Notes under the pieces: model-generated
Databases searched by the model: none
Told to the model about the DNA's origin: nothing
The model's input: only the letters and a program-made list of their open reading frames with translations
Assembly: GCF_024398015.1 (NCBI RefSeq)
Contig: NZ_CP073747.1
Coordinates: forward strand, 3,097,001-3,161,000
DNA length: 64,000 nucleotides
Reading direction: 5' to 3'
Source of the DNA: Kordiimonas sp. SCSIO 12610
GTDB taxonomy: Bacteria; Pseudomonadota; Alphaproteobacteria; Sphingomonadales; Kordiimonadaceae
Program-made: the position numbers and the translations under genes
Part shown: piece after piece, positions 30,538 to 60,312 of the stretch
How positions within the stretch are numbered: the first letter of the stretch is position 1
Layout of the letters: every line of letters begins with the position of its first letter

Positions 30538-31500
30538 ATGACTGACACCAAACATACTAAAATGCTTATCATCGGCTCTGGCCCTGCAGGCTATACTGCT
30601 GCAATTTATGCTGCCCGTGCAAATATTTCGCCCATGATTGTAACAGGCATGCAAGCTGGGGGTCAGCTGACAATAACGACAGACGTAGAAAACTATCCTG
30701 GCTTCGCTGATGCCGTTCAAGGTCCAGAGTTAATGGAAGCTATGCGCCAGCAAGCCGAAAATGTTGGAACTGAAATTATCTATGACCTGATCAACGAAGT
30801 TGATTTGAAGGCAACTCCGAAGCGTGCTGTTGGCGATAGTGGTACAGTTTACACAGCCGACACAATCGTTATTGCAACTGGTGCACAGGCGAAATGGCTA
30901 GGCATTCCATCTGAAGAAAAATTCAACGGATACGGCGTGTCTGCATGTGCCACATGTGATGGTTTCTTTTACCGCGGCAAAGATGTTGTCGTAATTGGTG
31001 GCGGCAATACTGCTGTTGAAGAAGCGCTGTACCTCTCAAACATTTGTAAATCAGTCACACTCATTCATCGCCGCGACGAATTACGGTCTGAAAAAATTCT
31101 TCAGGAACGCCTGTTTAAAACAGAGAATATCACAGTGAAATGGGATACTGTTCTGGATGAAGTCCTGGGCACAGAAGAGCCTCTCGGTGTAACTGGTGTA
31201 CGCCTTAAAAACGTTAAAACTGGCGGTACCGAAGACCTTGAAGTTCACGGCGTTTTTGTTGCTATTGGCCATACTCCAACCACTGGTATTTTCAAAGATC
31301 AATTGCCGATGGATGAAGAAGGTTACCTTTTTAAGAAGCCGGATAGCACGCAAACAGATATTCCTGGTGTCTATGCAGCAGGTGATGTGACCGACAAAGT
31401 CTATCGTCAGGCCGTTACCGCGGCAGGCATGGGATGTATGGCGGCGCTTGAAGCAGAAAAATATATCGCTGAATTAGAGCACGCTTTAGCCGCTGAATAA
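30538..31500 (+). CDS. trxB: Thioredoxin reductase
   Basis: A 320-residue NADPH-dependent flavoenzyme that reduces thioredoxin. The FAD site is [16 protein letters not shown] at 13-28, the redox pair is Cys137-Cys140 in ACATCDGFF, and the NADPH site is [16 protein letters not shown]. The C-terminal FAD segment is [23 protein letters not shown]. Length is normal. A terminator follows. In many alphaproteobacteria trxB neighbours the LysR gene seen here at 31973. Confidence 0.97.
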
Positions 31501-31569: not shown

Positions 31570-31872
31570 TCAGTGTACAACTGCATCATTTACAAGAGCC
31601 TGAACCGTATATCCCTGCTCAGTCAATGTTACCAATTGAGGGATCAAGTCTGTATCAACAACTTCAACCAAACTTTTCTGCATTAATTCAGCGAGTGCCG
31701 TATCGACACGAACTGCCGCAAAACCAAGCGCTTGCGACAAGGAATATCCGTTTTCCTGATCATCGCTACTTAGCAGGAGAAAAATCGATGCAGCCTCAAC
31801 AGACAGTCCAGGTACATGACGACCAAGCGCCTGTACCGTCCTTTTAAGAATATCTTCGTTATTACCATCCAT
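31570..31872 (-). CDS. Small winged-helix-like protein of unknown function
   Basis: A 100-residue, mostly helical soluble protein. The pattern SLSQALGFAAVRVDTALAELMQKSLVEVVDTDLIPQLVTLTEQGYTVQALV resembles a MarR-like winged helix ending in a wing and a helix. No larger effector domain is present. It lies between trxB and a LysR gene and is divergent from the latter, with about 100 bp between starts. I do not recognise the family. Confidence 0.6.
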   Translation of the reverse strand: MDGNNEDILKRTVQALGRHVPGLSVEAASIFLLLSSDDQENGYSLSQALGFAAVRVDTALAELMQKSLVEVVDTDLIPQLVTLTEQGYTVQALVNDAVVH

Positions 31873-31972: not shown

Positions 31973-32866
31973 ATGGACTGGGATAGGCTACGTATTTTTC
32001 ATACTGTTGCGGAAAGCGGAAGCTTTACAAATGCTGCAAACCGTTTGAACAGCAGCCAATCAGCAATTTCAAGACAAATTCGGGCATTGGAAGAAAGCCT
32101 GAATGTTTCACTTTTCACGCGCCATGCCCGCGGGCTAGTTTTGACGCATGAAGGACAAGAACTTCACAATATGGCACGTGAAGTTGTCCACAAAATCGAA
32201 GAGACAGAACGCAACCTGCTGGAGTCGAAAAAAAGGCCAACTGGATTACTTCGTGTAACAACAATGGTTACCTTTGGCTCTGTTTGGCTATCCCCTCATC
32301 TGAAACAATTCATGGATGAATATCCCGAAATTGATATTCAACTTATTCTTGATGATCGTGATCTTGACTTAGCCGCGGGTGAGGCCGATGTTGCCATTCG
32401 TTTGCACGATCCTGAGCAGGCTGATTTAATTCAACGTCCACTGGCAAGTTTCCACACCCATATTTATGCCAGCCCCGAGTATCTGGATCAACGCGGTACA
32501 CCAGTTACACCTGATGATCTAGATCATCATGATTTAATCACGCTAAGTAATGCCAATTCCCCCGTATTGAAAAGCATGCAATGGCTCTATGATATAGGTA
32601 ATCCCAAGCAAAAAAGAAAACCACGCCTTCAAGTTGACAACCTGTATGCTGTGATGCATGCCGTTGAAGCCGGGATTGGTATCGCCGTATTGCCCGATTA
32701 TCTAGTCCATAACCGGCAGAAACTTATGCGCGTTTTACCCGATATTGAAGGGACACCTTTCAATAGCTATTATTGTTATCCTCCAGAACTCAGAGGGTCG
32801 CTGAGGGTGGCACTCTTCAGGGATTTCATGGTTCGCCAAATCAGAGCGGAAAGTAATATTCTATAG
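31973..32866 (+). CDS. LysR-family transcriptional regulator
   Basis: A 297-residue LysR regulator. The N-terminal winged helix is DRLRIFHTVAESGSFTNAANRLNSSQSAISRQIRALEESLNVSLFTRHARG. The co-inducer domain includes GLLRVTTMVTFGSVWLSPHLKQFMDEYPEIDIQLIL and a VEAGIGIAVLPDYLV segment. This type of LysR gene is a frequent trxB neighbour in alphaproteobacteria. A small secreted-protein gene begins 8 bp after its stop and may be co-transcribed. Ligand and targets unknown. Confidence 0.93.
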   Translation: MDWDRLRIFHTVAESGSFTNAANRLNSSQSAISRQIRALEESLNVSLFTRHARGLVLTHEGQELHNMAREVVHKIEETERNLLESKKRPTGLLRVTTMVTFGSVWLSPHLKQFMDEYPEIDIQLILDDRDLDLAAGEADVAIRLHDPEQADLIQRPLASFHTHIYASPEYLDQRGTPVTPDDLDHHDLITLSNANSPVLKSMQWLYDIGNPKQKRKPRLQVDNLYAVMHAVEAGIGIAVLPDYLVHNRQKLMRVLPDIEGTPFNSYYCYPPELRGSLRVALFRDFMVRQIRAESNIL

Positions 32867-34246: not shown

Positions 34247-35992
34247 TCAATTTTGTTCTTCAGGGATAGGTTCCACAAGAACGCTCAAAATTTGATCACC
34301 TTCCTGCAAGGCGTAGACAATGTCCATGCCTTCAACAACATGCGCAAATACAGTGTACCGCCCATCGAGATGAAGATTACGGTGCGTATTGATGAAAAAC
34401 TGCGTACCACCAGTGTCTTTACCGGCTGTTGCCACCCCAACACTTCCAATTGAATGTGTGCCGGCCGCCCATTCTTCCCGAATACTGCCCCATTCATAGA
34501 GACTTTGATCTTCTTTCTGTCCTGCCTGTGCGACAAAATTAGGGATAACACGATGCCACAACATGCCATCCATCTTTCCTTGCTTTGCAAGCGTCACAAA
34601 ATTATGGCTTGTAAACGGTGCAGTTGGGTGCGTATCCATGATAATGTCGCCGCGTGTCGTTTTCATCGTTAAACGGCTTTGACTTTTCAAGGCATCTTTA
34701 TAATCCGGCGATGCTTTGGCAACAGTGCGTGCTTCGATCGAAGGGTCAATAGCTATCCTCGCCTCGCGCGCGCGGACGAAGTTATCACTTTTATCCGCAA
34801 AATCTTTCAACAAGTTACGTCCTTCTTCGCTTGCTGCAAGGCGGGCCATAGCATGAAACGCATAATAATAATTGTCTGAAGAAAGCCAATCGAATGCAAG
34901 CGCCTCGCCCTTTGCCTTATCCAAAGCGACAAGGCCCCGCATCGCCTGTGTATTGATCCAGTCGTTATCTTCCAAAAGTAAGGATTTTAATAGAGATGCA
35001 TACTGTGATTTAAGGTCAGCTTCCTTCAACACCTTTACATTCAAGGCAGCAATCGCAGCTTGCCTCTCGTGCGTAGCACGTTCCTTGTCCTTTACTATCG
35101 CTAATAAGGCCGTTGTTGCAGCAACATCATCCAATGCGCCCAAGCCTGCAATGGCTTCCTGACGATATTTAGGGTTATTGCCGGACAGTTGAGACAATAG
35201 AAAATCAACCTTTCCAGCTCCTAAGTTCACGCGCCCAATCGCACGAAGTAATAATAATTTCACGCTCTCATATTCAGCTTTATCAAAGGCGCTTTCGAAG
35301 TCCGAAAATGTCAGAAAGGCCTCTAATTCATTCATACGTGTCAAAAGATACGCTGCTCTTAACGCTGTTGTTTCTGCGTTTTTACCATATGTAAGTTTGA
35401 TCAGTTTTTGATAATCCAGATTTGGTAGGTCGCCTGCCTTTACGCCGGCATATACAATATTCTGCATCAAGCCTTCGAGCGCACCTTCTAAGGCCTCAGT
35501 CTTTTTTTCGCTGGATATCGCGTTAATAAGAATGGAACGAACATCAACACGGCCGGTATAACCAAGAGCTCGATAGAGTTCGCCTTTGATCAAGGGGTCT
35601 CGCTCACGATTGATCTGCAGCACAAGCGCCGGTGTAGAGATATTCTCCATACACATGGCGGCTCCACTTGCAGCATAGAGTTTAACATCATTTTGGTTAT
35701 GGTTGAGATATCGAGCGAGTTTTTGACATGACCCGGGTGTGCCAATTTGGCCCCAATGCCATAAGGCATCTATATAGCCTGCTTTCAGCGCTTCCTCAAA
35801 AACCGGGTTTATACCATCACGGTCATCCGCAGCCTCAAACATTAGGGCTTCATAATCAATGAAACCATTTTCATCCGGCTCAATTGAACTTTGTAATGAT
35901 TCTGACGCATCTTGAGCCGTGCTCAATGAGGGGAAAATATTCAAAAGTAAAATTACAGCAACAAACACATTGGCACGGAATTTTAAAAACAT
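34247..35992 (-). CDS. Periplasmic HEAT-repeat protein fused to cyclophilin-type PPIase
   Basis: A 581-residue exported protein. A signal peptide (VFVAVILLLNIFPSLSTA) is followed by some 370 residues of HEAT-like helical repeats (RQEAIAGLGALDDVAATTALLAIVKD, NTQAMRGLVALDKAKGEALAFDWL). The last 150 residues form a cyclophilin with LWHRVIPNFVAQAGQ (catalytic Arg, Phe and Gln), GTQFFIN and LDGRYTVFAHVVEGMDIV. Probably prolyl isomerisation or chaperone activity on periplasmic partners. I use ATG 35992, in front of the signal peptide, instead of an upstream frame extension. The upstream region has no gene for 450 bp. Confidence 0.85.
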   Translation of the reverse strand: MFLKFRANVFVAVILLLNIFPSLSTAQDASESLQSSIEPDENGFIDYEALMFEAADDRDGINPVFEEALKAGYIDALWHWGQIGTPGSCQKLARYLNHNQNDVKLYAASGAAMCMENISTPALVLQINRERDPLIKGELYRALGYTGRVDVRSILINAISSEKKTEALEGALEGLMQNIVYAGVKAGDLPNLDYQKLIKLTYGKNAETTALRAAYLLTRMNELEAFLTFSDFESAFDKAEYESVKLLLLRAIGRVNLGAGKVDFLLSQLSGNNPKYRQEAIAGLGALDDVAATTALLAIVKDKERATHERQAAIAALNVKVLKEADLKSQYASLLKSLLLEDNDWINTQAMRGLVALDKAKGEALAFDWLSSDNYYYAFHAMARLAASEEGRNLLKDFADKSDNFVRAREARIAIDPSIEARTVAKASPDYKDALKSQSRLTMKTTRGDIIMDTHPTAPFTSHNFVTLAKQGKMDGMLWHRVIPNFVAQAGQKEDQSLYEWGSIREEWAAGTHSIGSVGVATAGKDTGGTQFFINTHRNLHLDGRYTVFAHVVEGMDIVYALQEGDQILSVLVEPIPEEQN

Positions 35993-36277
35993 AATTATTG
36001 ACCTTTTACAGGGAACCAAAGTTCGAATATTCAAGTAAGTTATAGCATGCCATAATTTATTTATACCTGAAATTAACAAGTTTGACATCTAAAGCATTGA
36101 AAACAATAGAGTTAACGAAACAAAAGCTAGTCAGTTATAAATTATCAAAAACAACGAGATATGCAAAAAATGCATAGCTGGTAAGAAAATTAAATGGGTT
36201 CTACATAGATGCGATTTTGCGTATAACCCTTTTCACACGCTGCAACGCAGCAAACTGCTTTGACGGTTATACGTCAT

Positions 36278-36414
36278 AAAGGCCGGTTCTCGGATACCCT
36301 CCCCTCCCCACTTCCCCTTTCGGGAGCCGGCCCTTTAGTTTCTCTTTGGAAGAGATACTACCTCCCTAAAAGTTGACTAACTATTTTGCCCCGAATTTAT
36401 TTCGGGGCTTTTTT
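36278..36414 (+). ncRNA. Candidate structured small RNA with anti-Shine-Dalgarno loop
   Basis: Residues 36278-36292 (AAAGGCCGGTTCTCG) pair with 36321-36336 (CGGGAGCCGGCCCTTT), giving 15 base pairs with one bulged C and three G-U pairs. The 28-nt loop is pyrimidine-rich (ACCCTCCCCTCCCCACTT) and could pair with Shine-Dalgarno regions. TCTCTT/AAGAGA forms a second hairpin at 36341-36355, followed by single-stranded CTACCTCCC and the terminator. Family resemblance to alphaproteobacterial CCUCC-loop sRNAs is inference. The 5' end and promoter are not identified; the transcript may begin upstream near 36220-36275. Confidence 0.5.
36388..36414 (+). terminator. Orphan intrinsic terminator, plus strand
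   Basis: GCCCCGAA at 36388-36395 pairs with TTCGGGGC at 36401-36408 around a 5-nt loop, followed by six T. No plus-strand CDS precedes it within 2 kb. Confidence 0.9.
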
Positions 36415-36446
36415 CTTTTACATGGGAATAACGAGTTGGTTCTGGG

Positions 36447-37301
36447 TTAGCCACCTAGTTCTTCACCCCGTTTCCGCGCTGCTCTGACTGTCTCCCGAAT
36501 GAGGCCACCCAATCCACAATCAACTCCCATCAACGCATCAAGCCCTGCGGCTGTCGTCCCATTTGGGCTAGTTACACGTTCGCGGAGAACACCTGCGCTT
36601 GTTAACGGCTCATTTTCCAGCAAAGCGCCTGCTCCCACAATCGTATGCCGAGCGAGTTCTTCAGCCACGTCCGCAGGCAAGCCTTCGTTTTCCGCAGCGG
36701 CTGCCAAACATTCAATCAAATGAAACACATAAGCTGGCCCACTACCAGAAACTGCCGTGACAACATTAATCAACGCCTCGTTTTCTACCCACACAGTTTC
36801 TCCAGCCGCCTGCATTAGTAATTCAGCAACGTGTTTTTCATCATCTGTCACATTTGAACTGGCGACTAAGCCTGTTATGCCTTTACCAACCGCGGCAGGG
36901 GTATTGGGCATCGTCCGTATCATCTTGATCCCTGATCCCAGATAGGTTTCAAAATTTGCAATCGTTGTTCCCGCAGCCACAGAAAGCAGCAAAGTGTCAC
37001 TATTTAACGCTGGCTTTACTGAGGGTAAAACCGTTGCCATCATCTGAGGCTTGATCGCAACCAAAATTGCCTTCACATGAATAGTCGCAGGCAAGTCATC
37101 AGCACGGGCAATAATGTTTGCTTCAGGAAATGCCTGAAACATCTCAGCCCGGTTAGCTTTTTCCGTAAGTGCAGGGTCAATTATGTATACAGCATCAGCC
37201 TGAAGTCCGCTTTTCAACCATCCATCCAAAAGAGCACCGCCCATGTTACCGCAACCAAGCAAAACCAATGGCGCATCTGCGGAAAAGAGTGTTTTCATCA
37301 T
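36447..37301 (-). CDS. proC: Pyrroline-5-carboxylate reductase
   Basis: A 284-residue NAD(P)H-dependent enzyme catalysing the last step of proline synthesis. The Rossmann motif is VLLGCGNMGGALLDGWL at 13-29. The typical MIRTMPNTPAAVGKGITGL follows, and the C-terminal signature is AVSGSGPAYVFHLIECLAAAAENEGL with a later LRERVTSPNGTTAAGLDAL. Length is normal. It lies downstream of the YbjN-like gene on the same strand, an adjacency seen in other alphaproteobacteria. Confidence 0.96.
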   Translation of the reverse strand: MMKTLFSADAPLVLLGCGNMGGALLDGWLKSGLQADAVYIIDPALTEKANRAEMFQAFPEANIIARADDLPATIHVKAILVAIKPQMMATVLPSVKPALNSDTLLLSVAAGTTIANFETYLGSGIKMIRTMPNTPAAVGKGITGLVASSNVTDDEKHVAELLMQAAGETVWVENEALINVVTAVSGSGPAYVFHLIECLAAAAENEGLPADVAEELARHTIVGAGALLENEPLTSAGVLRERVTSPNGTTAAGLDALMGVDCGLGGLIRETVRAARKRGEELGG

Positions 37302-60145: not shown

Positions 60146-60312
60146 GGCGCGGGCACTGCGCTGTGCGTCTGATACGAAGTAACCCCTGGGGCTATAACTA
60201 CCTCTAGGGAGCTGTCCCTGGCCGAGATCGTGGTCTCTTTCATACGGCGCCCACCTGACTTGTCAGGTTCCAGAGGGTACAAACGTCAATACGGCAGAAG
60301 TGGTCCCGCACC
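60146..60312 (+). ncRNA. ssrS: 6S RNA
   Basis: This 167-nt gap between zapA and fthC is where 6S RNA lies in alphaproteobacteria. Its ends pair: GGCGCGGGCAC near 60146-60156 with GTGGTCCCGCACC at 60300-60312. An inner stem is formed by ACCTCTAGG near 60200 with CCAGAGGGT near 60270-60280. These leave an open central region, the expected RNA polymerase-binding bubble. 6S RNA imitates an open promoter and sequesters housekeeping holoenzyme. Exact ends are approximate. Confidence 0.8.

Follow-up and report, generated by a model that had tools for sequence, protein, structure and literature searches.

The plus strand of the 64-kb stretch of DNA analysed here (the window) carries at 36161-36414 a probable small-RNA gene that is uncatalogued and whose C-rich loop may silence mRNAs by masking their ribosome-binding sites. 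The gene specifies a conserved, structured RNA with promoter and terminator signals. It is linked to the gene for a LysR-type regulator, lsrB, and its putative operator recurs at lsrB loci across the Alphaproteobacteria. We infer transcription of the RNA, binding of LsrB, involvement of Hfq, and pairing with target messages. We consider it likely that 36234-36414 is an LsrB-activated, AbcR-like gene for a trans-acting sRNA that represses translation by pairing with Shine-Dalgarno (SD) sequences. The features are as follows.

30538-31500, plus strand: trxB, thioredoxin reductase (TIGR01292, 410.8 bits against a cut-off of 343.45), first gene of the trxB-lsrB-sRNA neighbourhood
31973-32866, plus strand: gene for an lsrB/vtlR-like LysR regulator (Pfam HTH_1 and LysR_substrate), the probable activator
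36161-36175, plus strand: ATGC-N7-GCAT palindrome ATGCAAAAAATGCAT, the probable LsrB operator, found at 26/26 family loci and 46/102 class loci
36172-36184, plus strand: GCATAGCTGGTAA, which overlaps the palindrome and fits the published LsrB box GCAT-N3-TG-N3-T bar the last base (A for T)
36194-36202, plus strand: ATGGGTTCT, family-conserved element of the -35 region, offset by 3 nt from the ATGG element of the class
36222-36227, plus strand: probable -10 element TATAAC (TATAAC or TATATA here in 24/26 family promoters)
36234-36414, plus strand: predicted sRNA of about 180 nt, its 5' end placed by inference
36239-36251, plus strand: 5' hairpin GCTGC-AAC-GCAGC (GCTGCAACGCAGC), 78 nt from palindrome start to hairpin start
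36259-36280, plus strand: small hairpin TTTGACG...CGTCA (predicted fold, alignment)
36278-36336, plus strand: long hairpin with the C-rich loop, stem 36278-36293 with 36320-36336 (covariation)
36297-36317, plus strand: C-rich anti-SD loop CCCTCCCCTCCCCACTTCCCC (fold, alignment, family cores)
36339-36355, plus strand: third small hairpin (predicted fold), variable in relatives
36358-36367, plus strand: single-stranded CTACCTCCCT, second anti-SD motif (predicted fold, alignment)
between CTACCTCCCT and the terminator, plus strand: GTTGACTAAC
36388-36414, plus strand: intrinsic terminator with U tail, stem 36388-36408 followed by TTTTTTC

The gene lies between two minus-strand genes, a HEAT-repeat/cyclophilin gene on one side and proC on the other. 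The longest ORF of the upstream gene sets the gap at 36089-36446, but the likelier start of that gene, at a signal peptide near 35991, would give the gap of about 450 bp described in an earlier note on this DNA. No ORF of at least 50 aa lies within the gap. The earlier note had proposed a new sRNA here, and its stem, C-rich run, exposed motif and terminator were reproduced at the same coordinates. Its proposal is supported by a conserved structured RNA gene that has promoter and terminator signals and matches no Rfam family at threshold; the lsrB linkage and the promoter palindrome are context that the note did not contain. Besides the C-rich run CCCTCCCCTCCCC, neither strand of the whole window has a stretch of 12 or more pyrimidines in which C makes up over 75%, and the terminator at 36388-36414 has the most G-C pairs among three terminator-like sites in 35500-37000 (shuffles: mean 1.5).

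The predicted folding energy of 36232-36414 was -62.9 kcal/mol, whereas shuffled sequences averaged -40.0 (sd 3.56; z -6.4) and 0/200 of them did as well. A DNA search of 59 genomes produced 16 loci, the window's own among them, with a match across the hairpin, and these were aligned; the remaining matches, for the most part fragments such as the bare terminator, were dropped. In the long stem 97.5% of the cells were paired, and 9/16 pairs had changed on both sides among 15 distinct sequences, so that the compensatory changes whose absence from relatives the earlier note had set as grounds for rejection are present. The covariation score of this stem was reached by 0/500 shuffles and by no slid register. 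Taking paired cells, both-side changes and the shuffle test together, we conclude that the long stem is more than chance. A fresh alignment of all 26 family loci likewise had 9/12 predicted pairs changed on both sides. The riboswitch-like pairing suggested earlier, of AAAGG alternatively with an upstream hairpin, found no support, as in relatives the long stem pairs AAAGG with CCUUU. Of this pairing, each of the two outer A-U pairs is kept in 13/15 distinct sequences, and six Kordiimonas sequences carry AATGG opposite CCAAT.

A covariance model built from the 16 seeds (R1) detected the RNA in 26/29 genomes of the family (Kordiimonas and relatives), ten of them outside the seed, with one copy each. 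Scores were at least 58 bits in 24/26 genomes and about 35 bits in the other two (G006 and G008); an additional match in G025 corresponds to the antisense strand of the locus already counted. The three family genomes without the RNA are G004, where lsrB was not found either, and two drafts, G024 and G026, the latter with a partial lsrB match. The cores are 76-84 nt long and contain CTCCCC in 26/26 and ACTTC in 21/26 cases. A scan for one exact pattern returned five records (Kordiimonas laminariae, K. gwangyangensis and three MAGs), a count that, because of the single pattern, is no measure of distribution. R1 also gave weak matches outside the family, in 10 genomes that all belong to one other family (E 2.5e-4 to 0.01); these were not counted as homologues. 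Four of these were inspected: L060 and L062 are plain palindromes, L061 lies before a pspA-like ORF and L063 after an ahpC-like ORF (ORFs identified by eye). At L063 (1501-1573), in another family of the order, a hairpin with the loop CTTCTCCCCCCTCCCCCAC stands directly 3' of the ahpC-like ORF (R1 E 0.001).

For the regulator in the window the closest solved chain is 9HH1, LsrB of A. tumefaciens (E 4.2e-81), and the next chain follows at 4e-32; none of the NCBIfam models among the 25 matches listed reached its cut-off. The protein has a single cysteine, residue 268, which is aligned with a cysteine of 9HH1. lsrB was found in 28/29 family genomes, and in 25/26 genomes with the RNA it lies 178-4469 nt upstream of it on the same strand; in G006 the two are on different contigs. 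A LysR regulator is the direct upstream gene, on the same strand, at 6/26 family loci. In the window the sRNA follows trxB-lsrB in the same orientation at a distance of 3.4 kb, and four ORFs lie between lsrB and the sRNA. An ORF of 100 aa without a Pfam match lies between trxB and lsrB on the minus strand (31570-31872), and ORFs similar to it by eye were seen upstream of lsrB at L041, L043 and L048.

The arrangement has a published counterpart. In Agrobacterium the gene order is trxB-vtlR-abcR1-abcR2, VtlR activates AbcR1, and GCAT-N3-TG-N3-T was proposed as its box. In Sinorhizobium the LsrB box is reported to span -61 to -49 and to be accompanied by T-N11-A motifs; promoter activity dropped more than 22-fold when the box was missing. 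For S. meliloti the literature is split: the Agrobacterium paper states that LsrB does not control AbcR, and a later paper that LsrB controls AbcR1. Among the papers listed on lsrB and AbcR, the leading ones concern rhizobia, Agrobacterium or Brucella.

Transcription of the Kordiimonas RNA would start at about 36233-36234, which puts GCATAGCTGGTAA at about -62 to -50. A generic promoter scan listed no promoter at the sRNA site and found no sigma-70 consensus there. GCAT-N3-TG is present in 24/26 family and 16/45 class promoters, and the full LsrB box in 7/26 and 14/45, respectively. We built a promoter matrix from the 70 nt after the palindrome in 45 class promoters. Applied to the 26 family promoters, it gave a mean of -3.5 versus -22.1 (sd 1.65) for shuffles and scored best at register 0/+1; single family promoters ranged from z 0.1 to 4.8, and the window's own promoter was weak (z 1.0). 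Family and class promoters resemble each other over the 10 nt that follow the palindrome (z 15.7) and around the -10 element (z 6.1), which the family has one nt further on. They differ at the -35 region (z -3.0), where ATGG stands 3 nt closer to the palindrome in the family. Sixteen class loci have both palindrome and 5' hairpin by exact pattern, with 77-81 nt from the start of the one to the start of the other; the exact hairpin pattern occurs in just 4/26 family loci, window included, at 77-79 nt.

In the window's own genome ATGC-N7-GCAT-NN-CTG has six matches, versus one for the pattern read backwards. One other palindrome site, ATGCTTAAAACGCATAGCTG with GCATAGCTG (G000:C1:847049-847068, minus strand), is found next to the FGase/alpha-R8 locus and precedes a TonB_C-domain gene.

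Several of these observations count against an LsrB-activated sRNA: the -35 region is out of register with the class, the LsrB box ends in A instead of T, the window's own promoter is weak with the class matrix and absent from the generic scan, the genome has six palindrome sites and four ORFs intervene between regulator and RNA. The number of sites, with one upstream of a TonB_C-domain gene, and the intervening genes would also fit an sRNA outside LsrB control, with the palindrome belonging to another regulator and the neighbourhood inherited by chance. T-N11-A, moreover, is generic for LysR regulators. We nevertheless regard this alternative as unlikely, given that palindrome and sRNA lie downstream of lsrB in 25/26 family genomes, that lsrB is the neighbouring gene at 6/26 family loci, and that the palindrome recurs at 46/102 of the sampled class loci.

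This recurrence emerged from a survey of 190 sampled genomes of the class, 105 of which (own included) carried an lsrB-like gene with an E value no higher than 1e-60. We examined 107 matches outside the window's own genome (104 genomes), of which 102 were long enough for a 500-nt count and 98 for control stretches. Within 500 nt downstream of lsrB, ATGC-N7-GCAT was found at 46/102 loci, compared with 1/98 in each of two more distant stretches. The corresponding frequencies were 53/102 for CCTCCCTGT (controls: 2/98 and 0/98) and 40/102 for CTCCCAGACG (controls: 0/98 and 0/98). At least one of the three signals occurred at 67/107 loci, and none by exact pattern at 40/107. When palindrome spacers of 0-14 were compared, only 7 was enriched (45/89 loci; others 0-5).

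Downstream of lsrB, class loci carry a candidate RNA of their own. We chose 39 loci for CTCCCAGACG plus CCTCCC with a T run and aligned 36 of them (alignment A2; three incomplete ones were dropped, and one locus without the T run was left out). The 36 RNAs are near-invariant over ACGTCTCCCAGACGTGAAGCCTCCCTGTT, for which the selection accounts in part. These loci (L103-L183) have a strongly conserved CTCCCAGACGTGAAGCCTCCCTGTT 3' domain. The class-wide RNA often carries CUCCCAGACGUGAAGCCUCCCUGUU and had no Rfam match at threshold in the loci scanned. Twenty-two signal-bearing lsrB loci likewise matched no sRNA family at threshold; this set combines 16/18 loci of one Rfam scan with 7/40 of another (palindrome-only loci excluded), one being in both. 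Sub-threshold matches at class lsrB loci were to SorX, SorY, suhB and, once, AaHKsRNA41. Downstream of lsrB at L123 and L150 the palindrome is repeated, at L150 also CCTCCCTGT, which suggests tandem sRNA copies as for AbcR1/AbcR2.

A model of the class 3' domain ACGUCUCCCAGACGUGAAGCCUCCCUGUU built from the 36 sequences (R2) placed just 1/26 family RNAs correctly below E 0.1 (E 0.04). Because R2 missed the family RNAs, we claim no homology of the RNA body, and the miss also weighs against reading the Kordiimonas RNA as an LsrB-activated sRNA of the AbcR kind. Operator, -10 element and place argue for common descent; neither the -35 region nor the RNA body shows it. On balance we lean towards an LsrB-activated anti-SD sRNA beside lsrB that is ancestral to much of the Alphaproteobacteria, with operator and place fixed and the body remodelled; AbcR would then be the rhizobial and the C-rich-loop RNA the Kordiimonas-family version.

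Rfam searches of 36050-36480 up to E 10 listed 21 families, all below threshold (anti-hemB with 27.9/49.5 bits, PrrF, suhB and others), and the five matches with alignments all cover the terminator. RF02346 (ar35) gave nothing over its cut-off. Among the nearest known RNAs, AbcR1/AbcR2 (alpha-r15, RF02345) with LsrB/VtlR share the layout: they too lie downstream of trxB-lsrB on the same strand. The published LsrB box of the AbcR1 promoter lies at -61 to -49, against a near-match at about -62 to -50 here. Both RNAs combine an anti-SD motif in a hairpin loop with a second, single-stranded one (here in a predicted fold, the sequence being kept in relatives) and end in an intrinsic terminator. The AbcR pairing sites are a loop motif, CUCCUCCC, and a second motif, UUCCCCUC. 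Unlike AbcR, the Kordiimonas RNA has a longer C-rich loop and ORFs between lsrB and the sRNA and belongs to a different family of the class, and ar15 is not among the 21 families found at its locus up to E 10. RF02345 also had 0 matches over cut-off in 289 class genomes (own included), in a search whose strict filters lose weak matches and which had no positive control. Alpha-r15 is reported from Rhizobiaceae and Brucellaceae, in multiple copies (PMC3712013), whereas each of the 26 family genomes has a single copy. We therefore do not file the RNA as AbcR, as it shows neither the model match nor the multiple copies.

The alpha-R8/MmgR/SisA-D RNAs (RF00519, suhB) resemble it in a single-stranded CCUCCCU before the terminator, and SisA-D of Caulobacter carry UUUCCUCCCU. 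At the Kordiimonas locus, however, RF00519 reaches 22.5 bits against a threshold of 41, and the neighbours are the HEAT/cyclophilin gene and proC, not FGase. A separate alpha-R8 copy (C1:845128-845201, 50.4 bits) lies near the FGase gene in the same genome; this copy and the low score rule out alpha-R8 identity. SorX and SorY of Rhodobacter (RF02784, RF02651) have no match at the Kordiimonas locus up to E 10; it is the class-wide lsrB-linked RNAs that have SorX's CUCCCUGUUNGAC stretch (best 42.6/46.6 bits). GsrN of Caulobacter is alike in its 5' C-rich loop but is reported to have a sigma-T (EcfG) promoter and BLASTn matches only in Caulobacteraceae. The EcfG-type promoter motif GGAAC-N15-18-CGTT is absent from both strands of 36100-36260.

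The mechanism is most likely as follows. LsrB, encoded 3.4 kb upstream, would bind both the palindrome (36161-36175) and the GCAT-N3-TG box that overlaps it, and bound LsrB would activate a weak promoter of the sigma-70 type. Two unpaired C-rich stretches of the RNA, the loop at 36297-36317 and CUACCUCCCU at 36358-36367, would then base-pair to G-rich ribosome-binding sites, probably together with Hfq, and so prevent translation. Anti-SD pairing by the sRNA is plausible by analogy with AbcR and the alpha-R8 RNAs.

A further mark of AbcR is Hfq binding with repression of transporter mRNAs. In computed pairing, the loop and CUACCUCCC bound more strongly to the starts of 20 TonB receptors than to those of 349 other ORFs (p 0.004 and 0.0006). 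The 20 receptors were taken from 29 matches, start codons were assigned by rule, and at least two receptors lie inside the 349-ORF background. The 16S tail, too, pairs better with the receptors (p 0.002). Once 16S-tail energy was regressed out and identical regions were removed, the loop effect had p 0.11, or 0.10 versus ORFs of at least 250 aa; the preference of the loop for TonB-receptor starts thus loses significance through the correction for SD strength.

This loss counts against the LsrB-sRNA mechanism and fits a protein-sequestering or structural RNA, whose C-rich loop would bind a protein and not mRNAs; so does the retention of a long C-rich loop despite its varying length. We hold such a role to be improbable in view of the second exposed CCUCCC and the parallel with the anti-SD motifs of AbcR and alpha-R8. 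Still less probable is a cis-acting leader or attenuator of a downstream gene. Hairpins and terminator are attenuator-like, and a same-strand ORF follows the RNA at several family loci, but proC runs towards the RNA in the window and the downstream gene differs among relatives. There is hardly any chance that the locus is a small protein gene or a chance palindrome, since the short ORFs that are present (the longest overlapping the RNA, among those of at least 20 aa, has 38 aa at 36260-36376) are at odds with loop indels that do not come in threes and a stem that covaries.

LsrB/VtlR and the AbcR RNAs have been studied for their roles in symbiosis and virulence. If the LsrB-activated sRNA is right and the pair of regulator and sRNA is class-wide, it would be a core metabolic or redox switch of the Alphaproteobacteria, beyond a host-interaction device, and open to study in free-living laboratory species. 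It would also be a case in which operator and place are conserved while the RNA that they drive diverges beyond recognition by sequence models. Elsewhere in the window, at 60150-60310 on the plus strand, lies a 6S RNA (52.6 bits against a threshold of 46.4).
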